Part shown: positions 6,947 to 21,742 of the stretch, one piece after another
Layout of the letters: every line of letters starts with the position of its first letter
How positions within the stretch are numbered: position 1 is the stretch's first letter
Source of the DNA: a virus
IMG/VR virus record: IMGVR_UViG_3300020438_000008
Span: 62,001 to 126,000 of that record
Direction: 5' to 3' (one strand)
DNA length: 64,000 nucleotides
Notes under the pieces: model-generated
The model's database searches: none
What the model was told of the DNA's origin: nothing
The model's input: the letters and a program-made list of their open reading frames with translations, nothing else
Made by a program: the position numbers and the translations under genes

Positions 6947-7075
6947 ATGTTTAAGTGGCATAAAAAACAAACAGAATATTGGCAAAATAAATTTAATGTA
7001 GATTCATATACTATGATGTGGATAGCCTATGTTAAAGGCCTAATTATGGGTTTACTTATTGCTTGGTTTATTTAA
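6947..7075 (+). CDS. 42-residue single-span membrane peptide
   Basis: A short gene read directly from the sequence. It starts MFKWHKKQTEYWQNK and ends with a hydrophobic segment GLIMGLLIAWFI, giving one membrane span with the N-terminus polar and basic. GGAGA stands seven bases before the ATG, overlapping the end of the preceding gene. With its neighbour it forms a pair of small membrane proteins. Its last eight bases overlap the end of the convergent nuclease gene. Confidence 0.65.
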   Translation: MFKWHKKQTEYWQNKFNVDSYTMMWIAYVKGLIMGLLIAWFI

Positions 7076-7598
7076 TACCTTCAATGCAGTGACGTTCAAA
7101 TACGTCTGAATTGTACTTCCAAAATTCTTCTGCACTTGTTAGTATCCAACAACCATTCTTCTCAGACTTGTAAGTTACACTAATCGGTGAACGCCATCCG
7201 AGTCCATTCATACGGTCTTGAAACGCAACATAAGTTCCTATACGATTAAATTTCATAAAGATAATGTTAACATCACTATCTTCTGCAATCTCCATAGTTT
7301 GTACAATCCAGTCCTCCAAAAGAGGAATTTTTTTATCATACAATAAATGGTGCCAAGGGAATTCTTTATAAAACTTACACTCACAGTTAAAGTACTTCCA
7401 GTTATCAGGAGGTATAATATCTCCTTTAAAACCTCGTACTTGTCCTTCGCTTAAGTTAGTTGCTCTATGGAAATTACTTCCACCTATAAATGCTCCAGAA
7501 TTAGGGACACGTACAAAACTACCATTATATTTTTCACTTAGAAATTTTGCTTGTTCTCTTTCATATCCAGAACCCTTAGATTTGCTTTTACTTGGCAT
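7068..7598 (-). CDS. PD-(D/E)XK nuclease, Holliday-resolvase-like
   Basis: A 176-residue protein. The N-terminus reads GSGYEREQAKFLSEKY, followed by SFVRVPNSGAF and, near residue 60, RGFKGDI and then CECKFYKE. The order E ... GD ... ExK is that of PD-(D/E)XK nucleases of the archaeal resolvase (Hjc) type. It may take the role of T4 endonuclease VII (gp49) in cutting branched DNA, or nick specific DNA; which one cannot be read here. It is transcribed from its own sigma-70 promoter (7699-7727) with a leader of about 90 bases. Confidence 0.55.
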   Translation of the reverse strand: MPSKSKSKGSGYEREQAKFLSEKYNGSFVRVPNSGAFIGGSNFHRATNLSEGQVRGFKGDIIPPDNWKYFNCECKFYKEFPWHHLLYDKKIPLLEDWIVQTMEIAEDSDVNIIFMKFNRIGTYVAFQDRMNGLGWRSPISVTYKSEKNGCWILTSAEEFWKYNSDVFERHCIEGIK

Positions 7599-7698
7599 AT
7601 GTTTAATCTCTTTTCATTATAAAAGGTCTAAAGACCTAATCCCAATTAATATTCATTCGTTAGCACTCATTCATATTAATCGGTATTTCTATTTCTTT

Positions 7699-7727
7699 AT
7701 TATATAACATTAATTGGTATAAGTCAA
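7699..7727 (-). promoter_or_regulatory. Sigma-70 promoter of the nuclease gene
   Basis: On the minus strand TTGACT (7722-7727) and TATAAT (7699-7704) are separated by 17 bases. The nuclease start lies about 100 bases downstream. Confidence 0.7.
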
Positions 7728-7740
7728 ATGATATTATATT

Positions 7741-8160
7741 ATGAGTCTCTGTCCCGTGAAGAAGCCATAATTGCCCTGTTGCCAGGACAATTAAAAAATG
7801 GCTGTACAGAAAATCTTGTCTTATCTGTCCCTTGCTCATCGCCTCTATGTCTAAGTTAGTCGCTAGTTACGACGGAGTCGGTTGACGATCCCTCCTTAAC
7901 TTAGTATTGCATCTTTCGATTCAACGGCACCCTTTATAATCCACATAGATAGAAACTATAAAAAGCAGATAGTGTTATAAAAACCTATCATCGGTAATAT
8001 TATACTAGTCAACCATGTTCTTTAGGAACCATGGCTGTTTTATGATTATGAATACTCTTTGTGGTTTACGAGAAGAATGTCAGAATTCATCCTGACTAGT
8101 CCGACGGCAAACACTACGTTTGCAGTCTCAATCCCGTGTCGGCAACCCGACAAACGATTC
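7741..8160 (-). ncRNA. Structured RNA candidate in a 640-base gene-free stretch
   Basis: No credible gene lies between 7599 and 8238. The segment 7741-8160 is dense in hairpins: 7768-7793 (11 pairs), 7851-7904 (an eight-pair stem enclosing hairpins 7859-7873 and 7874-7895, a three-way junction), 8013-8034, 8079-8096, 8107-8123 and 8138-8151. The strand is set by 7768-7793: read on the minus strand it has a G-U pair and a GCAA tetraloop, whereas the plus strand would give a C-A mismatch. Two near-identical 15-base motifs (7744-7758 and 8124-8138) bracket the region. I cannot assign it to tmRNA, RNase P RNA or an intron. It lies downstream of gp26/gp51 on the same strand. Confidence 0.5.
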
Positions 8161-8238
8161 CACTATGTATGCTGAGATATTAGTCATTCCCTTTTCCTAT
8201 TCGCCGAGATATATATTAGATTGTATTAGTTTTATTAG

Positions 8239-9299
8239 TTATAGTATTGGCATTCCTGCCTTTTTACTCATTTCAAAATTCTGGTCAATAATCTCATTCA
8301 GATGTTTGATATGATTCACTGGCATTTCATGAAGTTCTGAGATAGAAACCCCACCCCTCATGTACCAAGATAATTGTAACAGATTCTTATGTACCTTGTC
8401 AAGTTCTTTTTCAAACTTTTTTTGTTTTTCTGCAATTTCTTCACCGCTGGCGGTTGCTAGCCAGCCTAGGAAAAATTTGCAGGATTAATCTCTATATTAA
8501 CTTTTTGTACATGGTCGCATTCTGGACATTTAAATTCAAAATTGTTTAACGCTTCTGGCTTTTTAGCTATGTCTTTAACTCTTTTATCCATATTTGTAAC
8601 TACTGATGTAGGAACATTAGCAAGAAATTCAATAATTTGTTTCTTGTCAGTGACCTCACCTTCTGGTGTTTCTATCTTATCGATAGTCTCTGAAATCAAA
8701 TCAACATTGTATTCAGCTACACGTTTGAAACTTTTGTAAAACTTTTTCGCAAGTTCCAACTCATCCTTATCATTAGTAATATCATTTTTGACATTATTAA
8801 CGATTCGCTGTTCTTCAAGCTGGATAAGAGCAACCCGTGTAACACTTTCTAGTGTTGGTGGTCTCATATGGATTGTTAAATTTTCATATACTACAGGCTC
8901 AACCTTATTAATTTCAGGGAACTTGTTTAGTACAAAATCGATATCAATATTGAAATCATTCTTATTCTCACACTCTTTACATGTATGAGTATATGTGAGA
9001 TTACTACCGTTTGTTGCGTATTGAATAGCCATATAAAGTGCTTCTGCATCAATGTTGCATAATTTTCTTGCATCTTTGATACTAGGAACACAACTTTCTA
9101 TTAAAGAAATCATTGCCTCACCATTAAGAAGTGCATCTGGATTACGCATTGTAATCTCATCGATAGCAGTCATAGGCATAACGCCCACTTCTTCAATAAT
9201 AGTTTGGTCTATTTCTGGGTTAAATTTACCTTTAGTTGGTAAACTAACATATATAGCTGGCTTTCTAAAGTACTTAGTTAGCGGGTTATCGGTCATCAT
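8239..9299 (-). CDS. gp26-gp51 fusion made by -1 frameshift
   Basis: The gp26 frame ends at a TAG (8466-8468), but the -1 frame continues for about 78 codons to a TAA at 8239-8241. The join has the parts of a programmed -1 site, read on the minus strand: slippery heptamer A-AAT-TTT (8478-8472), a six-base spacer that contains the stop, and a GC-rich stem GCTGGC (8465-8460) with GCCAGC (8451-8446). The extension reads FFLGWLATASGEEIAEK and then QLSWYMRGGVSISELHE, ending KKAGMPIL, and resembles gp51-like hub assembly proteins. This is analogous to the lambda G/GT tail chaperones. A separate start for the extension has no ribosome-binding site. Confidence 0.7.
8446..8478 (-). promoter_or_regulatory. 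Programmed -1 frameshift signal
   Basis: The heptamer AAATTTT is in phase as A AAT TTT, so both tRNAs can re-pair after slipping back one base. Six bases later a six-pair GC-rich stem with an eight-base loop begins. The stem is conspicuous in this AT-rich genome. Confidence 0.7.
8466..9299 (-). CDS. 26: Baseplate hub/tail assembly protein gp26
   Basis: A 277-residue protein with the features of T4-like gp26: an N-terminal YVSLPTKGKF with EVGVMPMTAIDEI and PDALLNGEA, then a Cys pair CKEC near residue 110, MRPPTLES near 150, and a C-terminal zinc-like pair CPEC before the ending INPANFS. It acts in hub assembly. The start at 9299 (MMTDNPL) has AAGGAA upstream. It has a perfect sigma-70 promoter (9367-9395) on the same strand. 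A share of ribosomes is expected to frameshift near its end and make the longer gp26-gp51 product. Confidence 0.75.
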   Translation of the reverse strand: MMTDNPLTKYFRKPAIYVSLPTKGKFNPEIDQTIIEEVGVMPMTAIDEITMRNPDALLNGEAMISLIESCVPSIKDARKLCNIDAEALYMAIQYATNGSNLTYTHTCKECENKNDFNIDIDFVLNKFPEINKVEPVVYENLTIHMRPPTLESVTRVALIQLEEQRIVNNVKNDITNDKDELELAKKFYKSFKRVAEYNVDLISETIDKIETPEGEVTDKKQIIEFLANVPTSVVTNMDKRVKDIAKKPEALNNFEFKCPECDHVQKVNIEINPANFS

Positions 9300-9408: not shown

Positions 9409-11646
9409 ATGGCTGAAGGAAATGTGTATATTGAAGGTATTGATCCTTCGATCCCTGGTTGGGCAACCGAAACTACGATGTCCCAAATACGCCAAATACT
9501 GGCTGGTTTAGCCGCAGACCAAGGCGCAACTAATAAAGCATTAGACCAAATGAAAAATAGTGAAGGTGGGGATGCCCAAAAAGCATATAAAGTTTTACAT
9601 GATACATTGGGAGAAGTTAGACAACAAGGTGCTAAAGAACAAAAAGCTAACCAAGAAGAAAAGAATGATAGAACAAGGTTAGCTGGACAAAATACTAAAA
9701 TAGCAGGATACTTTGAACAACTTATAAAACAAAGCGAAATATCAAATGAAATTGCCAGAAGTTCAGCCGAAAGAGATAGAGAACAATTTATAAAGAAAAC
9801 AACTGGTCAAAATCCAAATATCACAGAAGAAATGGCAGGTATGGAATTTGATAAAGAAAAACTTAAGAAAAACTTTGAAGATGTTAGTGCCGCAGTAGGA
9901 AAATCTGCAATCGGTATTTTAGCAAGTACAGGCATGATTAATAGTTTTATGGGCCAACAAACAGAAGACAGATTTAATATGGCCCAAGAAATTAGACAGT
10001 CAGGTTTAATGGCAGGTTTTGATTCTGTGACTGCTAGTCTTTCAGAAATGTCTGGAATGATTAATGAAAATAACTTTACTTTGGGTGAAGCGGCAGAATT
10101 TACAAAAAGATTTTCAAGGTCTGTTGGTATGGTAGGGGTAGAGGCTTCATTAAAGTTTGCTAACTCACTAACAAAATCTCAGGAAGCAGGTGGTCTTGAT
10201 TTAATGGGAAGATTTGGTCTTGAATTTGGTGAAGTAACATCAATGGCAGGAGAATACCTAGACTCATTAAGAAACATGGGCATGCTTGATAGAATGAGTC
10301 AGCAACAATTACGTGACGGCATGGACGATTTTATGTCAGGTGTTTCTTCAACTGCAAACGTTTTAAAGATAAACATGGAAGATGCGGCTAAGATGATTTC
10401 ACAAACTCTACAACGTGACGATGTAACATCAAGATTAGTTACTATGGATCCTAATAGAGCGGATGCTATTAGAGAAACTATTGGCTCAGCAGGAATGTTA
10501 GAAGGTACATTAGGTCAAGCAGTTATCGAAAGAATGGCATCAGGAAGCCAAGGCGCATTTGTACGTGAACAAACATTCCAACAATTAAGTGGTACCGGTA
10601 TTGGTAAAGAATTACTTCCAATAGTAGAACGACTTGCATTGGCAGGCGAACAAGGACCAGAAGCATTTCAAACTGCTATTGCTGATTTATCTCCTGACAT
10701 TGAGTCTATCATTGCAAGTGCAAGTACAGAAGGCAATCGTGCAGTTTTACAAACAGACCAATTTTTACAGTCAATGGTTGCAGACTTGTCTCGTCTTAGA
10801 GCAACAGTGGAAGATGCAGATGCAGGACCGGTAGCACCATCACAAGAAGATAAGGCTGTTTTACAAGGAATAGAAAATAGAAGACAGGCTATTATTGGAT
10901 TAGAAGATATATTCAATACACAAGTTAAAGGTTTTACGGATATATTAGGAGAAATGAACGCCGCCAACGCAGAATCAATTAAAGAATTTAGAAGATTAGG
11001 AAATGAATTAGGACCAGTAGCAACTGTTATTACAGATTTATCTGGAACATTTGAGGTAATAAAAACAGATTTCTTTACATCATTGGCAGGTATGGCCGCA
11101 GATATAAGTGCATGGTCTACAGAAAATCTTGGGATAAGGGATGAAAATCAAGACCAAAAAAATCTTGAAAACGAAATTACATCCTCAGAAGCAACAAAGA
11201 ATTTAACCGAAGGTAAAGGAAAACTCAGGGACGAGGATTCAGGTGTAATCACAGATAATAATAATCAAAATATATTCGACCAAATTATGAAAGGCTTAGA
11301 GGCAACTGGATCAAACCGGGACGAAAAAATTGCTAAAAGTACAGAAAAAATGGTTGAGTTGATGGGAATGTTTGATAATGGTGATAGCATAGCAGACAGA
11401 GAGGCGCAGATGGTAGAATTCGCAAAAGTACTAGAGGTACTTTCGAAAACTGATGCGGCTCAAACTGAGGATGGAAAGAAAAATCTTGAAGCAATATATG
11501 AGGCTTTAACTAACATGGATACGAATATGGCTTCTTGGTTTAAGCCAAAATCTGTAGATGACCGTAATACGGCAGAAAACCAAGCAGAACAAAACGCTAT
11601 ACTGGTAGAATTACAAAAGCTAATAAATGCGTTAAATAACATATAA
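9409..11646 (+). CDS. Large virion protein, putative tail tape measure (gp29-like)
   Basis: A 745-residue, mainly helical protein rich in Gln, Glu, Met and Ala, with repeated amphipathic segments and one hydrophobic patch near residues 160-180 (SAIGILASTGMINSF). These traits, the size (T4 gp29 has 590) and the neighbouring gp26-gp51 chaperone-like gene suggest the tail length ruler. No motif proves it; another hub or internal virion protein remains possible. The start has AAGAGG eight bases upstream. It lies before the portal gene, unlike the T4 order. Confidence 0.45.
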   Translation: MAEGNVYIEGIDPSIPGWATETTMSQIRQILAGLAADQGATNKALDQMKNSEGGDAQKAYKVLHDTLGEVRQQGAKEQKANQEEKNDRTRLAGQNTKIAGYFEQLIKQSEISNEIARSSAERDREQFIKKTTGQNPNITEEMAGMEFDKEKLKKNFEDVSAAVGKSAIGILASTGMINSFMGQQTEDRFNMAQEIRQSGLMAGFDSVTASLSEMSGMINENNFTLGEAAEFTKRFSRSVGMVGVEASLKFANSLTKSQEAGGLDLMGRFGLEFGEVTSMAGEYLDSLRNMGMLDRMSQQQLRDGMDDFMSGVSSTANVLKINMEDAAKMISQTLQRDDVTSRLVTMDPNRADAIRETIGSAGMLEGTLGQAVIERMASGSQGAFVREQTFQQLSGTGIGKELLPIVERLALAGEQGPEAFQTAIADLSPDIESIIASASTEGNRAVLQTDQFLQSMVADLSRLRATVEDADAGPVAPSQEDKAVLQGIENRRQAIIGLEDIFNTQVKGFTDILGEMNAANAESIKEFRRLGNELGPVATVITDLSGTFEVIKTDFFTSLAGMAADISAWSTENLGIRDENQDQKNLENEITSSEATKNLTEGKGKLRDEDSGVITDNNNQNIFDQIMKGLEATGSNRDEKIAKSTEKMVELMGMFDNGDSIADREAQMVEFAKVLEVLSKTDAAQTEDGKKNLEAIYEALTNMDTNMASWFKPKSVDDRNTAENQAEQNAILVELQKLINALNNI

Positions 11647-11704: not shown

Positions 11705-13402
11705 ATGAGCTGGAAAAAATATTTTAAAACATACGACGGAATGCCAGAGAAAATGCCTGCATCGACAGGTACTGGTTATGCCGGAGATGCAGACACAAAA
11801 CGATATAGTAGTTGGTTACCTGAGGTTTATCAGGGACAACCTAATCGTGTTCAACGATATGGTCAATATGACCAAATGGATTTAGATAGTGAAGTAAACA
11901 CTGCGTTAGATACTATTGCAGAATTTTCTACACTAAAAAACGAACAATCTAAACTTCCATTTCATGTCGAATATAATGAAGACCAAACTGAAACTGAAAA
12001 TGACGTTATTCAAAAGTCATTAAGACAGTGGTGTGCAGTAAATAAACTTTCTAAAAGAATGTTTCGTATTTTCAGAAATGCAGTAAAATACGGAGACCAA
12101 ATGTTCATTCGTGATCCTGAAACATATAAACTTTTTTGGGTAGATCCAGCTAAAATCGAAAAAGTTATTGTGAACGAAGGTAAAGGAAAAAAGATTGAAG
12201 CATATTATATTAAAGATTTAGATATCAATCTGCAAAGTCTTAATATTACAGCCGATACAACTAAACTATTACAAACACAAACAGGGTTAACAGGTGCACC
12301 TAACATCAATGCTAATACAACACAAGGCTTTGGTGGCGGAGCGGCAGGCGGAACACGTTTTGTTTCAGACCAAACTTCAACTCCTGTAGATGCTAAACAC
12401 GTTGTACACGTTTCATTGAATGAAGGTATCGATGGCTTCTGGCCTTTTGGTAACTCAATTCTTGAACCAGTGTTCAAAGTTTACAAACAAAAAGAATTAT
12501 TAGAAGATGCTATTCTGATTTATCGTGTTCAAAGAGCACCAGAACGTAGAGTATTCTATATCGATGTTGGTAACATGCCAACACACAAAGCAAGAGCCCA
12601 CTTAGAACGTATTAAAAGTGAAATTCATCAAAGACGTATTCCAAGTAAAACAGGCGGTGGACAAAACATCGTTGATAGTGCATACAATCCACTATCTATT
12701 ATGGAAGATTACTTCTTTGCTCAGACGGCTGAAGGTCGTGGTTCTAAAGTTGAGACACTACCAGGTGGTGAAAACTTAGGACAGATTGATGATTTAAAAT
12801 ACTTCAATGATAAGATGATGCGTGGACTTAGAGTCCCACCAAGCTATCTAGGTAGCTTAGACAGTGACGGTAACGGCTACAATGATGGTCGTGTAGGCAC
12901 TGCATTCATTCAAGAATTTAGATTTACTAAGTTCTGTGAACGTTTACAAGCATTAGTATGTGAAGACTTAGACAGAGAGTTTAAGATGTTTATGAAACAC
13001 AGAGGTGTGTTGATTGAAAGTTCTTTATTCGACTTGAAATTTAATCCTCCACAAAACTTTGGTAAGTATCGTCAAGCAGAAGTAGACCAAGTTATGATGA
13101 ACGTATTTACTGCAATCGAAGGCGCAGATTATGTAAGTAAACGTTTTGCAATGAAACGTTTCTTAGGTTTATCAGAAGAAGAAATTATGATGAACGAAAA
13201 AATGTGGCATGAAGAAAAAGGCACTGGTGACCCACAAGATGCAGACGGACTTAAATCAGTAGGAGCAAGTGTTCCTGGTGGTGAGTTTGAAGGCGGCGAA
13301 CCAGAGTTTGATGAAACAGATGCAGAAACAGATGAAGAAGGTTCACCAATAAGTGGCGCGGAAAATTCCGAAGAAGGCGAAGAAACGCCTATAAACGTAT
13401 AA
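11705..13402 (+). CDS. 20: Portal vertex protein gp20
   Basis: A 565-residue portal protein. Hallmarks are DLDSEVNTALDTIAEF near 60, the FRNAVKYGDQMF segment near 125, YRVQRAPERRVFYIDVGN near 280, NPLSIMEDYFFAQTAEGRG near 335 and LPGGENLGQIDDLKYF near 360. The C-terminus is acidic. It forms the dodecameric ring through which DNA is packaged and to which the neck binds. Start at 11705 (MSWKKYFK) with CTAAGGA upstream. It opens the head operon gp20 to gp23. Confidence 0.95.
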   Translation: MSWKKYFKTYDGMPEKMPASTGTGYAGDADTKRYSSWLPEVYQGQPNRVQRYGQYDQMDLDSEVNTALDTIAEFSTLKNEQSKLPFHVEYNEDQTETENDVIQKSLRQWCAVNKLSKRMFRIFRNAVKYGDQMFIRDPETYKLFWVDPAKIEKVIVNEGKGKKIEAYYIKDLDINLQSLNITADTTKLLQTQTGLTGAPNINANTTQGFGGGAAGGTRFVSDQTSTPVDAKHVVHVSLNEGIDGFWPFGNSILEPVFKVYKQKELLEDAILIYRVQRAPERRVFYIDVGNMPTHKARAHLERIKSEIHQRRIPSKTGGGQNIVDSAYNPLSIMEDYFFAQTAEGRGSKVETLPGGENLGQIDDLKYFNDKMMRGLRVPPSYLGSLDSDGNGYNDGRVGTAFIQEFRFTKFCERLQALVCEDLDREFKMFMKHRGVLIESSLFDLKFNPPQNFGKYRQAEVDQVMMNVFTAIEGADYVSKRFAMKRFLGLSEEEIMMNEKMWHEEKGTGDPQDADGLKSVGASVPGGEFEGGEPEFDETDAETDEEGSPISGAENSEEGEETPINV

Positions 13403-14837: not shown

Positions 14838-15467
14838 ATGACCGTTCTTATTGAAAGATTATCTCACAAACAAGCGAATGTGAAGTCACGTATCGTTGAA
14901 GGTGATGACGGTGGAAAAAACATGTTCATGGAAGGCATTTTCGTTCAAGGTAACGTAAAGAATGCTAACCAAAGGGTATACCCTGTATCTGAAATTACTA
15001 GGGCTGTTGAATCAGTTCAAGCTAAAATCAGTGAAGGATTCCCGGTTTTAGGTGAATGTGACCATCCGCCAGAATTAACCGTAAACGTTGACCGTGTTTC
15101 GCATATTATTGAAAGTATGTGGATGGATGGACCGAACGGATATGGTAAACTTAAAATTGTTCCTACACCCATGGGTAACATTATCAGAACATTAATCGAA
15201 TCAGGTGCCACGCTAGGTGTCTCATCTCGTGGTTCTGGTGAAGTTGGCAATAATGGGAATGTTAGCAATTTTGAGATTGTCACAGTGGACATCGTAGCAC
15301 AACCAAGTGCTCCGGATGCCTATCCGAAGGCAATCTACGAAGGTTTAATGAACATGCGTGGTGGTTTCCAAACTTGGCAACTAGCACAAAATGTACAAAC
15401 AGACAAGGTCGCTCAAAAATACTTGTCAGAACAAATCGTTAAGTTCATTAATGAACTTAAACTATAA
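14838..15467 (+). CDS. 21: Prohead core protease gp21
   Basis: A 209-residue serine protease of the herpesvirus-like prohead family. FPVLGECDHPPEL near 66-79 supplies the active-site His and GVSSRGSGEV near 126-135 the Ser; VDIVAQPSAPDAYPKAIYEG follows, as in the family. It cleaves scaffold and capsid proteins at (L/I)xE sites during maturation. TTGGAGA precedes the ATG. It is encoded directly before its substrate gp22. Confidence 0.93.
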   Translation: MTVLIERLSHKQANVKSRIVEGDDGGKNMFMEGIFVQGNVKNANQRVYPVSEITRAVESVQAKISEGFPVLGECDHPPELTVNVDRVSHIIESMWMDGPNGYGKLKIVPTPMGNIIRTLIESGATLGVSSRGSGEVGNNGNVSNFEIVTVDIVAQPSAPDAYPKAIYEGLMNMRGGFQTWQLAQNVQTDKVAQKYLSEQIVKFINELKL

Positions 15468-16626: not shown

Positions 16627-17781
16627 ATGGAAAATCTTTTTGAAGGAAATAACTGGGACGGTACACGTGATGCTCTTTTAGAAGGTCTAGAAGGCACAAA
16701 ACGTGACACAATGTCCGCAGTTTTAGAAAACACTAAAGTAGCACTTAATGAAAGTGCAACTGCTGGTGCAACACAGGCTGGTAACATCGCAACACTAAAC
16801 AAAGTGATTCTACCAGTTATCCGTCGTGTAATGCCAACAGTTATCGCAAACGAAATCATCGGCGTACAGCCAATGACTGGCCCAGTTGGCCAAATTCACA
16901 CATTACGTGTACGTTACGCAGAAGCAAAAGCTGGCGTGGCGGCAGGTGATGAAGCACTAAGTCCATTTGAAATTGCTAACGCATATTCAGGTGACGCGGC
17001 AGGGGCTCCGGCTTCTACAGCATCACTAGAAGGTGAAGCAGGTTCAAAAATGTCAATTCAAGTGTTAAAACAAACTGTAGAAGCTAAAACAAGAAAGCTA
17101 TCTGCACGTTGGACATTTGAAGCGGCTCAGGACGCTAACTCAATGCACGGTTTAGATATCGAAGCTGAAATCATGGCGGCATTAGCAATGGAAATCACTG
17201 CTGAAATCGACCAAGAAATCTTAGGTTCACTATCAAGCCTAGCAACAACTGGCGCTACATATGACATGTCAGCATCTTTCACAGGTACACCAACATTTAT
17301 TGGTGACAGACATGCCGTTCTTGCGACATTAATTAACCAACAAGCTAACCTAGTTGCTCAACGTACTCGTAGAGGCGCGGCAAACTGGGCAGTTATCTCA
17401 CCATCAGCACTAACAGTTCTACAATCTGCAACTACATCAGCATTTGCACGTACAACTGAAGGTACTTTTGAAGCACCAACAAATACTAAATTCGTAGGTA
17501 CTCTAAACAGTACAATGAGAGTATATGTTAACACATATGCATCAAACGATGACGTATTACTTGGTTACAAAGGTCAAGGCGAAATCGATGCGGCGGCATT
17601 CTATTGTCCGTACGTACCGCTAATGTCTTCAGGCGTTGTGGTAGATCCAAGTTCATTCGAACCAGTAGTGTCATTCATGACTCGTTACGGTTACGTTGAA
17701 CTAACAAATACTGCATCATCTCTAGGTAATGCGGCAGACTACGTATCTAAAATCGCAGTCTCAAATCTATCTTTCGTATAA
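16627..17781 (+). CDS. 23: Major capsid protein gp23
   Basis: A 384-residue HK97-fold capsid protein. Conserved parts include VILPVIRRVMPTVIANEIIG with VQPMTGPVGQI near residues 58-90, WTFEAAQDANSMHGLDIEAE near 160, NQQANLVAQRTRRGAANW near 240 and VPLMSSGVVVDPSSFEP near 335. It is clearly shorter than T4 gp23 (521), as in other distant marine relatives. The N-terminal part is expected to be trimmed by gp21. A strong terminator follows, so the transcript ends here. Confidence 0.96.
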   Translation: MENLFEGNNWDGTRDALLEGLEGTKRDTMSAVLENTKVALNESATAGATQAGNIATLNKVILPVIRRVMPTVIANEIIGVQPMTGPVGQIHTLRVRYAEAKAGVAAGDEALSPFEIANAYSGDAAGAPASTASLEGEAGSKMSIQVLKQTVEAKTRKLSARWTFEAAQDANSMHGLDIEAEIMAALAMEITAEIDQEILGSLSSLATTGATYDMSASFTGTPTFIGDRHAVLATLINQQANLVAQRTRRGAANWAVISPSALTVLQSATTSAFARTTEGTFEAPTNTKFVGTLNSTMRVYVNTYASNDDVLLGYKGQGEIDAAAFYCPYVPLMSSGVVVDPSSFEPVVSFMTRYGYVELTNTASSLGNAADYVSKIAVSNLSFV

Positions 17782-19747: not shown

Positions 19748-21742
19748 ATGGCGGCATATGCAATACAGTTCCGTCGTGGGACAACGACACAACACTCATC
19801 ATTTACTGGCCTAGTAGGTGAGGTTACTGTCGATACTGACAAGAAAACACTTGTAGTCCACGATGGTTCAACAACCGGCGGCTACCCACTTATGAGAGAA
19901 GGCGGATCTTCGTCTTCGACAACAGGTTCGTTCTCAAGTAACGTAACTGTTGGGGGTACTCTAGCGGTAACAAATACAGCTACATTCTCGGCAGGCGTAA
20001 ATGTAACAGGTGATTCAGAATACACCGGTCACATCTTACCTGGCACAGATGATACTTTTGACTTAGGCTCAACAACAAAAAGATGGCGTGACTTATACTT
20101 AGGCCCTGGCTCACTTTATGTTAACAACAAGAAAATTCTTGAAGATGACAGTGGTACCATTACTATCAAAACTGATACTGATGAAAACCTAAAATTAGTG
20201 ACTACAGGTACTGGTACGATGCAAATCGAATCAAGCAACGGAATTCAGTTCACAGGCGAACTTAAAACTTCATCTGGTGATATTCAGGTCGGTGACCACA
20301 TTGACATGAACTCAAATATCATCAAAGAAGTTGGCGCTCCAACAACTGGCTCTGATGCGGCCAACAAAACATACGTAGACAATGCAGTTAGTACAGGTAT
20401 CGGTTCAGGCGCCAATGCTGTTTCAGGTACAACTGGTGCGTTTACAAGTGATGTAACTATTGGTGGTGACTTAACAGTTAATGGAACAACTACTACAATT
20501 AACACTTCACAAATCAACTTAGCAGACAACATTCTATTATTGAACTCAGATGCAACTGGCTCAGCTACAGCATCAGGTGGTATCGAAATAGAACGTGGCG
20601 ATGACTTAAACGTTCAGTTACTATGGGACGAAACTAATGACCGTTGGTCAATTGGTGCAGAAGACCTATATTCATCAGGTGACTTTATCGGTAATTTAAC
20701 TGGTAACGTAACTGGTAATGTAACTGGTAACGTAACAGGCACTACAAGTGATATTTCAAATCACGACACAGATGCCCTAGCAGAAGGTACAAATAAATTA
20801 TACTTCACAGATGCAAGAGCAAGAGCGGCAATTTCAGTTTCAGGTGACTTAACATATAATCCTACAACTGGTGTAATTTCGACTCAAGGTCTAGCTTCAA
20901 GTGATACTGATGACCTTGCAGAAGGTTCAACAAACCTTTACTACACAGATGCACGTTTTGATACAAGATTAGGCACTAAAGATACAGACGATGTATCAGA
21001 AGGCTCATCTAACTTGTATTACACAGATGCACGTTGGGACTCAAGACTATCTACTAAGAATACAGATAGTTTATCAGAAGGCTCATCTAACTTGTATTAC
21101 ACAGATGCACGTGTAGGAACTTATCTAACAACTAACTCATACGCAACTGAGGCATTCGTAACAAGTGCAGTTCAAGGCGTTGATAACTCAGACGAAATTA
21201 CTGAGGGTTCATCTAACTTGTATTTCACAGACGAAAGAGCCCAAGATGCGGTAATGGCTAATGTTTCTGCAGGAACAGGTATCAACGTATCATATGATGA
21301 TGCGGCGGGTACATTAACTGTAACTAACACACAAACAGAAGTCAATGACTATGTAGATGGTGCTTCATTCTCAGGCGGTACACTAACTTTATCAGTTGGT
21401 ACTCAATCAGATGTAACAGTATCTTTAGATGGTCGTTATGCACAGTTAGGAAACACTTCTAAAAAACACACACATGCTTATGAGGCAACTGCACAAGACG
21501 AAACAGATAACACTGGTTCATCACATGCAATCACATGGGCTAACTTAACTTCTGGTAAGATTGACACTGGTGGTGTTGATTTTGCATCAGAAATTAATGA
21601 TTCACCGTATGCTGTTGTTTATATCAACAGAATTATGGTGAGAGCAAATGAGGTATCTATTACTTCAACAGGATTAACTTTTGCATCAGACGTTCTTACA
21701 GAAGACGATGAAGTAGAAGTAGTCTACATGGACGAGCAATAA
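19748..21742 (+). CDS. Modular tail-fibre-type protein B with DAR repeats
   Basis: A 664-residue protein. The N-terminal 50 residues (IQFRRGTTTQHSSFTGLVGE, then VDTDKKTLVVHDG) match the N-terminal domain of major-tropism-determinant-type proteins. A GTTTTINTSQINLADNILLL module near 240 is shared with fibre A; GNVTG tandem repeats follow near 320, then five units of a repeat with core EGSSNLYYTDAR (about residues 340-500). The C-terminus (DDEVEVVYMDEQ) is a separate small domain. A trimeric fibre is likely. AAAAA-poor, Thr/Ser/Asn-rich composition is typical of such fibres. Confidence 0.68.
   Translation: MAAYAIQFRRGTTTQHSSFTGLVGEVTVDTDKKTLVVHDGSTTGGYPLMREGGSSSSTTGSFSSNVTVGGTLAVTNTATFSAGVNVTGDSEYTGHILPGTDDTFDLGSTTKRWRDLYLGPGSLYVNNKKILEDDSGTITIKTDTDENLKLVTTGTGTMQIESSNGIQFTGELKTSSGDIQVGDHIDMNSNIIKEVGAPTTGSDAANKTYVDNAVSTGIGSGANAVSGTTGAFTSDVTIGGDLTVNGTTTTINTSQINLADNILLLNSDATGSATASGGIEIERGDDLNVQLLWDETNDRWSIGAEDLYSSGDFIGNLTGNVTGNVTGNVTGTTSDISNHDTDALAEGTNKLYFTDARARAAISVSGDLTYNPTTGVISTQGLASSDTDDLAEGSTNLYYTDARFDTRLGTKDTDDVSEGSSNLYYTDARWDSRLSTKNTDSLSEGSSNLYYTDARVGTYLTTNSYATEAFVTSAVQGVDNSDEITEGSSNLYFTDERAQDAVMANVSAGTGINVSYDDAAGTLTVTNTQTEVNDYVDGASFSGGTLTLSVGTQSDVTVSLDGRYAQLGNTSKKHTHAYEATAQDETDNTGSSHAITWANLTSGKIDTGGVDFASEINDSPYAVVYINRIMVRANEVSITSTGLTFASDVLTEDDEVEVVYMDEQ
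20696..20745 (+). repeat. Short tandem repeats coding for GNVTG
   Basis: A 12-base unit close to ACTGGTAACGTA is repeated about four times with small changes and codes for GNLTGNVTGNVTGNVTG inside fibre B. Confidence 0.7.
20768..21245 (+). repeat. Fibre B repeats, core EGSSNLYYTDAR
   Basis: Five degenerate units. The two best copies (from 20995 and 21073) share 40 identical bases and are spaced 78 bases (26 codons) apart, which points to recent duplication. Confidence 0.75.

Follow-up and report, generated by a model that had tools for sequence, protein, structure and literature searches.

The locus studied here raises the question of how a phage reads the end of its gene 26, where the frame of a gp26-family protein stops and the -1 frame runs on across the stop. 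We analysed a window, meaning the whole stretch of 64,000 nucleotides that corresponds to bases 62001-126000 of a 160,851-bp IMG/VR virus record, and the coordinates given below for this locus are those of the window. The source virus appears to be a large marine virus of bacteria. Pfam searches placed several T4-type genes nearby, namely portal gp20 at 11705-13402, the prohead protease at 14838-15467 and the major capsid protein gp23 at 16627-17781, and the virus is best read as a T4-superfamily phage. Further along, a 664-aa protein (19748-21742, plus strand) carries a major tropism determinant N-terminal domain (PF18454, E 3.1e-16). The features of the gene 26 locus are as follows.

8466-9299, minus strand: gp26-family open reading frame, predicted short product (TAC-N) of 277 aa, with PF12322 and phrog_150 matches
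8472-8478, minus strand: putative slippery heptamer A AAT TTT, in phase with gp26, supported by clade conservation and codon choice
8466-8471, minus strand: 6-nt spacer TCCTAG, which contains the gp26 stop TAG (8466-8468)
8446-8465, minus strand: stem-loop GCTGGC-TAGCAACC-GCCAGC, 3' of the heptamer, supported by pairing across the clade and by its fold z
8239-8472, minus strand: tail that would be read in the -1 frame after the slip, 77 aa and TAA, called gp51 by position

The gp26 open reading frame belongs to the Pfam family T4_baseplate (PF12322, E 1e-18), with a score of 68.3 bits against the curated cut-off of 24.5, and it also matches the baseplate hub family phrog_150 (E 3.3e-24). Its 3' end on the minus strand reads GCA AAT TTT TCC TAG, and the -1 frame is open from stop to stop over 8239-8484. 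The original prediction, that the gp26 frame ends at 8466-8468 and the -1 frame continues for about 78 codons, was thus confirmed on the minus strand. The same holds for the heptamer AAATTTT, the six-base spacer and the six-pair stem that it had placed in phase: all three were found at 8446-8478, with a zero-frame A AAT TTT and stem arms GCTGGC (8460-8465) and GCCAGC (8446-8451) that form 6 bp around a loop of 8 nt. The RNA of positions 8400-8480 folds with -24.3 kcal/mol (z -3.6). A slip at this site would join 276 gp26 residues to 77 new ones (FLGW...PIL) in a fusion of 353 aa, whose join region reads INPANF followed by FLGWLATASGEEIAEK. Among the 80 window ORFs of at least 90 aa, nine have an in-phase XXXYYYZ within the last 20 codons and 18 have a -1 frame that stays open for at least 50 codons beyond the stop, and a single one, the gp26 ORF, has the heptamer and the open -1 frame joined. 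As expected for programmed -1 frameshifting, the upstream frame has an X XXY YYZ heptamer in phase close to its end, a potential stimulatory structure stands within about 5-9 nt downstream (6-nt spacer and 6-bp stem, in the window clade), and coding selection is seen on both frames, with pN/pS values of 0.30 for the tail and 0.53 for the last gp26 codons.

Based on these observations, we suggest the following mechanism. A ribosome on the gp26 mRNA would arrive at A AAT TTT and hold AAT in its P site and TTT in its A site; the stem 6 nt downstream would slow it there, and in a fraction of passes both tRNAs would re-pair one base back (AAA TTT). The majority of ribosomes would stop at TAG two codons on, giving the 277-aa short protein, and a minority would continue in the -1 frame, giving the 353-aa protein with the 77-aa tail. 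The short and long proteins would then hold the tape-measure protein during tail tube building, in the manner of G and GT of lambda. We infer the slip in vivo, and likewise its rate. To the reading that the -1 slip yields short and long tail assembly chaperones (TAC) holding the tape-measure protein we assign a probability of roughly 0.86.

The production of short and long isoforms from one gene or from a duplicated pair characterizes tail assembly chaperones, and at the sequence level this arrangement was found here. Vladimirov et al. reportedly proposed in 2022 that gp26 and gp51 are tail assembly chaperones in T4-like phages. According to the PRFect paper, the TAC of some T4-like phages is encoded by two genes, one short and one a longer fusion, for which it cites Vladimirov, Gautam and Davidson 2022 (PMC10885494), and a paper on phage Adele cites Vladimirov 2022 for poly-T frameshift signals in the TAC-N genes of T4-like phages (PMC12846349). 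By these two papers, the tail-chaperone frameshift is already known in kind and the window locus is an unannotated further case; the titles and abstract openings of the literature searched yielded no paper on the gp26 slip of jumbo phages. Considering the literature on T4-like TACs together with the short/long architecture, we infer a chaperone role for gp26 and the fusion, and the predicted pair of gp26 and gp26-51 chaperones is the best reading of the locus. The AlphaFold2 model of gp26 (mean pLDDT 68) adds a likeness that is suggestive only: the HK97 TAC 2ob9 came second of 490 re-aligned chains (Z 6.0, 99/107 residues, rmsd 5.7), tied with unrelated rows and at background level. The best VIA row against this model was a prefoldin (Z 6.1), and Foldseek found no PDB match to it below E 1.3.

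It should be considered that the short and long proteins might be parts of the virion baseplate hub instead of chaperones. This is what the Pfam and PHROG names say, and relatives are labelled 'baseplate hub' or 'structural protein'. These hub names of the gp26 and gp51 families, which we take to descend from T4 genetics, count for little in that direction, and a short/long pair made by a -1 slip is a hallmark of tail assembly chaperones, the role for which the two papers above cite the T4-like genes. We therefore consider hub parts unlikely, and continue with the chaperone pair.

If the pair is made by frameshifting, the signal should be kept where the two frames are kept. We searched viral contigs with the -1 tail protein, using six search peptides of which one overlaps the join and five do not, and obtained 50 loci, 31 of them distinct. 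All 50 loci (31 distinct) found in this way carry an in-phase A AAT TTT at one and the same position and the tail in the -1 frame, and in all 31 distinct alleles the tail is 78 codons long from the slip; the upstream ORFs of the 31 representatives measure 280-316 codons from stop to stop. Three further relatives found with gp26 sequences (L011, L084 and L085) have AAATTTTTTC and an open -1 tail; L012 and a second copy, L094, stop short of the join. The clade alleles are related to each other, and thus these counts are not independent events.

The codon choice in an alignment of 30 of the 31 alleles is informative. First, AAATTTTT and GCTGG are invariant. Second, whether Val, Ala or Ile is encoded just before AAT, the codon ends in A in 30/30 alleles. 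Third, the Asn of the slip site is AAT in all 30, and the Asn three codons upstream is AAC in 16 and AAT in 14. Finally, the codon at the start of the stem encodes Ser, Gly or Arg and yet ends in GC in 30/30, and Ser in the 3' arm is encoded by AGC in 26/29, with Thr in one allele. The tail has a median pN/pS of 0.30 in the -1 frame compared with 1.26 and 2.26 in the other two frames (431/435 pairs, those with pS >0.05), and across it the -1 frame has no stops and the gp26 frame has 6-12. Judging from these values, selection on the tail acts on the protein read in the -1 frame, and it is purifying. Tail codons 12-24 (8400-8441, minus strand) also show an excess of synonymous identity among the 30 alleles, for example Leu as CTT in 27/28; the slip signal does not explain this constraint, which may reflect relatedness or another element.

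The stem was examined in the same clade, where its spacing from the heptamer is constant in the alignment. It is paired in 98.1% of 156 cells (26 distinct rows) compared with 16-72% when slid by 1 to 3 columns, RNAalifold retains five of its pairs, and unpaired cells occur in two of the six pairs (in 1 and 2 of the 26 rows). No two-sided change was found in the 26 distinct rows. By eye, the outer G-C pair is changed to A-U in L085, which is a two-sided change, and is a broken A-C in L084. The predicted stem is upheld as to pairing in the clade and register, and is weaker as to covariation, with the one two-sided change in L085. Judged on sequence, the frameshift passes every test run except two-sided covariation of the stem in the 26 rows, and signal, conservation and selection on both frames support the programmed -1 frameshift that had been predicted.

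The clade also bears on the possibility that the tail is made alone, by re-initiation at a start near the gp26 stop, with no fusion formed. An ATG lies 15-18 codons upstream of the slip in 4/30 clade alleles, and GTG or TTG only is available before tail codon 26 in 7/30, which would allow re-initiation in these alleles. However, tail codon 26 is not preceded by any ATG, GTG or TTG in 19/30 alleles, the window's included, and the earliest start common to all 30 is codon 38 of 78. We return to this possibility with the wider set of phages.

A tblastn search of a phage collection with gp26 gave 62 records, all less than 60% identical, of which 60 were listed, mostly with genomes of 280-490 kb. 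Among the 62 we examined 16 jumbo-phage records, many of the rest being near-copies. All 16 have a heptamer in phase and, joined to it, an open -1 frame; the heptamer is T TTT TTC in 15 and T TTT TTT in RAS14. These 16 loci contain 101 ORFs of at least 100 codons, 32 of which have a heptamer and 16 of which are joined, one per locus and in each case gp26. The heptamer marks the exact point at which the -1 frame opens in Munch and Hallingskeid. Annotation of a frameshift is absent from all 16 records. The tail is annotated as a separate 'hypothetical protein' in 14 and is missing in two, Paride and RaK2. In both of the latter (L014 after 4849 and L029 after 4349, respectively) an unannotated -1 tail, open and conserved, was seen.

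Cyanophage and rhizobial relatives show the same arrangement, with gp51 in the -1 frame of gp26 in P-SSM2, S-PM2 and phiM7. A scan with the gp51 tail of P-SSM2 gave at least 600 matching stretches, and among the best 80 loci, 78 of them distinct, gp51 lies in the -1 frame with an in-phase T TTT TTC and is joined open in 78/78. A scan with phiM7 gp26 gave 78 loci, of which 4 run off the contig and 18 are repeats; the 56 left all have an in-phase T TTT TT[C/T] and a -1 frame that stays open from the slip for 61-75 codons, and in none of the 56 does the +1 frame run for at least 35 codons past the stop. A tail scan with the Phosso sequence gave no matches, and a scan based on alignment A1 was dropped for insufficient conservation. 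In short, the heptamer and the frame relation are kept in every locus examined, as expected from the original prediction, and the contrary case that it named, loss of the heptamer with both frames kept, was not seen in any of them.

The other contrary case named there, a well-placed start for gp51, is partly present. Among the 78 distinct cyanophage-type loci, at least 59 have an ATG 2 nt past the gp26 stop, so that free gp51 could additionally be made there, and in Atu_ph07, Phosso and 121Q an ATG overlaps the stop; the annotators' division into two genes in 14/16 jumbo records also agrees with re-initiation. On the contrary, the slip site persists even alongside the ATG, Paride has no nearby ATG, 44/56 gp26-type loci have none from -13 to +43 nt around the stop (ATG only being checked), and T4 carries the fused form. 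Together with the 19 clade alleles that offer no start, these observations make re-initiation without a fusion highly improbable, and frameshifting remains the preferred explanation.

The slippery sequences themselves differ between groups. In L011, L084, L085 and L065/L066, A AAT TTT and T TTT TTC overlap in AAATTTTTTC, which also occurs in 6/56 gp26-type loci. The remaining window-clade alleles have AAATTTTTC followed by C, A or T, and since this base spoils the second heptamer, the slip in them would have to use A AAT TTT, one codon earlier. It appears from these sequences that the slip site moved by one codon with the reading of the join unchanged. The runs of T might instead be taken for sites at which RNA polymerase slips and puts the tail in frame, as most relatives outside the window clade have at least six T in a row. 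However, the window has only AAATTTTT, and the A that is kept before AAT across three amino acids and the stem at constant spacing matter to ribosomes, not to polymerase, which leaves this reading still less probable than re-initiation. A sequencing error or a decayed gene split in two is favoured by the frame break itself and nothing more, and is refuted, to the point of being negligible, because the break is conserved, lying at the identical position in all loci examined with the -1 frame under purifying selection. Based on the loci above, the slip at gene 26 looks like an unusually broad and clean record, and the two-gene layout of T4 looks exceptional.

The original prediction also took the large neighbouring gene to be the ruler of the tail.

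9409-11646, plus strand: neighbour encoding 745 aa (P0003), unproven candidate tape measure or virion protein

A large gene beside gp26 on the opposite strand is found in 13/16 jumbo records (not in Atu_ph07, Vibrio 2.275.O and RAS14), and the lengths of the encoded proteins are 745 aa in the window, 720 in RaK2, 734 in 121Q, 798 in Paride and 832 in Phosso. P0003 is similar to the Paride protein (BLASTP E 3e-10) and weakly to the Phosso counterpart (E 3e-4); no similarity to the 121Q counterpart and no significant Pfam, PHROG or PDB sequence match was found. The annotator of RaK2 noted a tape-measure similarity for its counterpart, and the 121Q and RaK2 counterparts are in phrog_14121, which PHROGs labels 'head and packaging'. 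The AlphaFold2 model of P0003 is all-helical and of low confidence (pLDDT 41). With the opposite strand, the absence of family and PDB matches and this model, the assignment as the ruler is plausible and unproven.

On the other side of the locus, 640 nt lie between the tail stop and the resolvase gene.

7620-8182, minus strand: apparent large structured non-coding RNA, 3' of the tail stop, with covariation and, in Rfam, no match at threshold
7068-7598, minus strand: resolvase/PDDEXK gene, next downstream (Pfam PF24608, 1.5e-23; phrog_244 RusA-like, 1.3e-14)

The 640-nt gap is strongly structured on the gene strand (z -4.1, 20 shuffles). It is 91-95% identical in L036, L042, L043 and L045-L048, and the gp26 protein is 66-86% identical in L036, L042, L043 and L045. 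A structure of 129 pairs has 94.8% of its cells paired among 22 distinct alleles. Two-sided changes occur in 49/129 pairs compared with 27.3 (sd 2.6) in shuffles, none of 500 reaching 49, and in 228 cells compared with 71.8 (sd 7.6) in shuffles and 6-35 in slid versions; these counts are biased towards the structure, since it was derived from the same 22-allele sequences. Covariance models of two domains found held-out relatives, L011 and L084 by both models and L085 by one. A coding reading of the region was rejected: a 59-aa ORF (7660-7839, minus strand) is whole in L034-L036 and L038-L040 and broken in L037, L041-L043 and L045-L048. Rfam gave no match at threshold and one chance-level match (E 2.6), named phages contain no similar DNA at E 0.1, and in distant jumbo loci the best hit of the covariance models was 14 bits (E 0.12), outside the gaps; the filters-off covariance search was for the R1 model only. 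No paper on this RNA was found among the titles and abstract openings of the literature searched. Based on these results, 7620-8182 is apparently an undescribed structured RNA of about 560 nt as judged by covariation, and it may be a more novel object than the frameshift.

Two observations concern the ends of this RNA. At its 3' end, a hairpin AGGTCT...AGACCT (7624-7637, minus strand; helix 24) is paired in 100% of cells of the 22 alleles, and this hairpin may be a terminator or a processing end. Upstream of the RNA, immediately past the tail stop, inspection by eye of columns 36-68 of alignment A8 showed in many relatives (L051, L053 and similar) a TTGACA separated by about 17 nt from a TATAAT-like box, as if the RNA had its own promoter in those relatives; the window sequence showed no such boxes there.

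In enterobacterial and Xanthomonas jumbo phages, a mutually conserved gap of 768-836 nt precedes an endonuclease VII gene, at or close to the equivalent position.

L015, 5047-5882: equivalent gap
L021, 4544-5347: equivalent gap
L022, 4544-5329: equivalent gap
L028, 4544-5346: equivalent gap
L031, 4541-5308: equivalent gap
L024, 5469-6260: equivalent gap

In these six sequences two-sided changes occur in 47/179 pairs and in 63 cells, compared with a shuffle mean of 16.7 and a maximum of 27 in 200 shuffles, and the fold z of the six gaps ranges from -0.3 to -4.3. The XbC2 gap has an open run of 147 codons, and small hypothetical genes are annotated in the corresponding stretches of Hallingskeid and Kaldavass, so that these gaps may be coding. 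Covariance models detected no relation between the window RNA and the enterobacterial/Xanthomonas RNA. Of the other gaps, that of RAS14 does not fold better than shuffles (z -0.65), and Phosso has 1014 nt before its resolvase gene (L016 6233-7246) with a fold z of -5.7. Phage ICP1 reportedly makes an abundant non-coding transcript of about 800 nt, likened in size to GOLLD and ROOL (PMC7567579). If confirmed, the RNA adjoining gene 26 would be a phage RNA in the GOLLD/ROOL size class.

The tail had been predicted to be gp51-like, and this stood as to position and architecture and was weaker as to sequence. No convincing Pfam or PHROG match was found for the window tail, and HMM searches found no gp51 family match either to the isolated tail or to the fused protein, which matched over gp26 only. 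Five of 18 aligned tails match phrog_18291, which has no stated function. Comparison of the window tail with cyanophage gp51 by hhalign was weak (probability 11.7, E 0.0026), and profiles detected no homology to cyanophage or T4 gp51 tails; for this reason the tail is called gp51 by position. Residues 1-201 of T4 gp51 match PF12322 (E 3.9e-52), as does T4 gp26 (8.8e-64), phrog_634 is matched by T4 gp51 residues 147-246 and by cyanophage gp51 tails, and phrog_150 spans T4 gp51 residues 3-248, with the cyanophage tails matching its end from position 231 onward. By these matches, T4 gp51 is a gp26-family domain with a C-terminal tail, a one-frame version of the fusion, and since it spans PF12322 and phrog_634, a single T4 frame encodes what the other phages appear to obtain by the slip.

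Taken together, we lean towards a view in which the T4 superfamily, with its jumbo, cyanophage and rhizobial branches, ancestrally made the long tail chaperone by the -1 slip at gene 26, T4 being derived, and in which an undescribed class of structured RNA of about 560 nt lies downstream on the same strand, a separate structured RNA being at the equivalent place in enterobacterial/Xanthomonas jumbo phages; we hold this joint view with clearly less confidence than the chaperone reading itself. In many T4-superfamily phages, two genes that have been annotated separately or missed would become one gene with a recoding signal, and their annotation would be corrected accordingly. The slip sites T TTT TTC, T TTT TTT, A AAT TTT and the overlapping AAATTTTTTC form a natural series that would show a signal moving without loss of its product.

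Lambda makes the tail chaperones G and GT, and the genes for G/GT of lambda, E/E' of P2 and similar tail assembly chaperones immediately precede the tape-measure gene, with which they share a strand. The window locus resembles these systems in having a short product and a frameshifted long one. However, the large neighbour here is divergent, and since 9409-11646 is on the opposite strand, the locus is not filed as a lambda-type operon. P-SSM2, S-PM2 and phiM7 are closer, with gp51 in the -1 frame and a gp26 that has T TTT TTC or T TTT TTT close to its end, but the slip is one codon further on, the tail sequence differs and many have an ATG after the stop. RaK2/121Q/PA5oct-type phages, Phosso and Atu_ph07 share the slip architecture, a gp26 that is 26-32% identical and, in 13/16, the gene order; unlike the window, they use T TTT TTC or T TTT TTT and not A AAT TTT. 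In T4, the tail of gp51 has no detectable homology to the window tail, and the likeness lies in the short part, which is in PF12322, and in a gp51 that consists of that domain and a C-terminal tail. T4 has separate, divergent genes 26 and 51 (one Straboviridae record), whereas the window has one gene and a -1 slip, and the T4 genes, called hub assembly genes, would be recast as a split chaperone pair.
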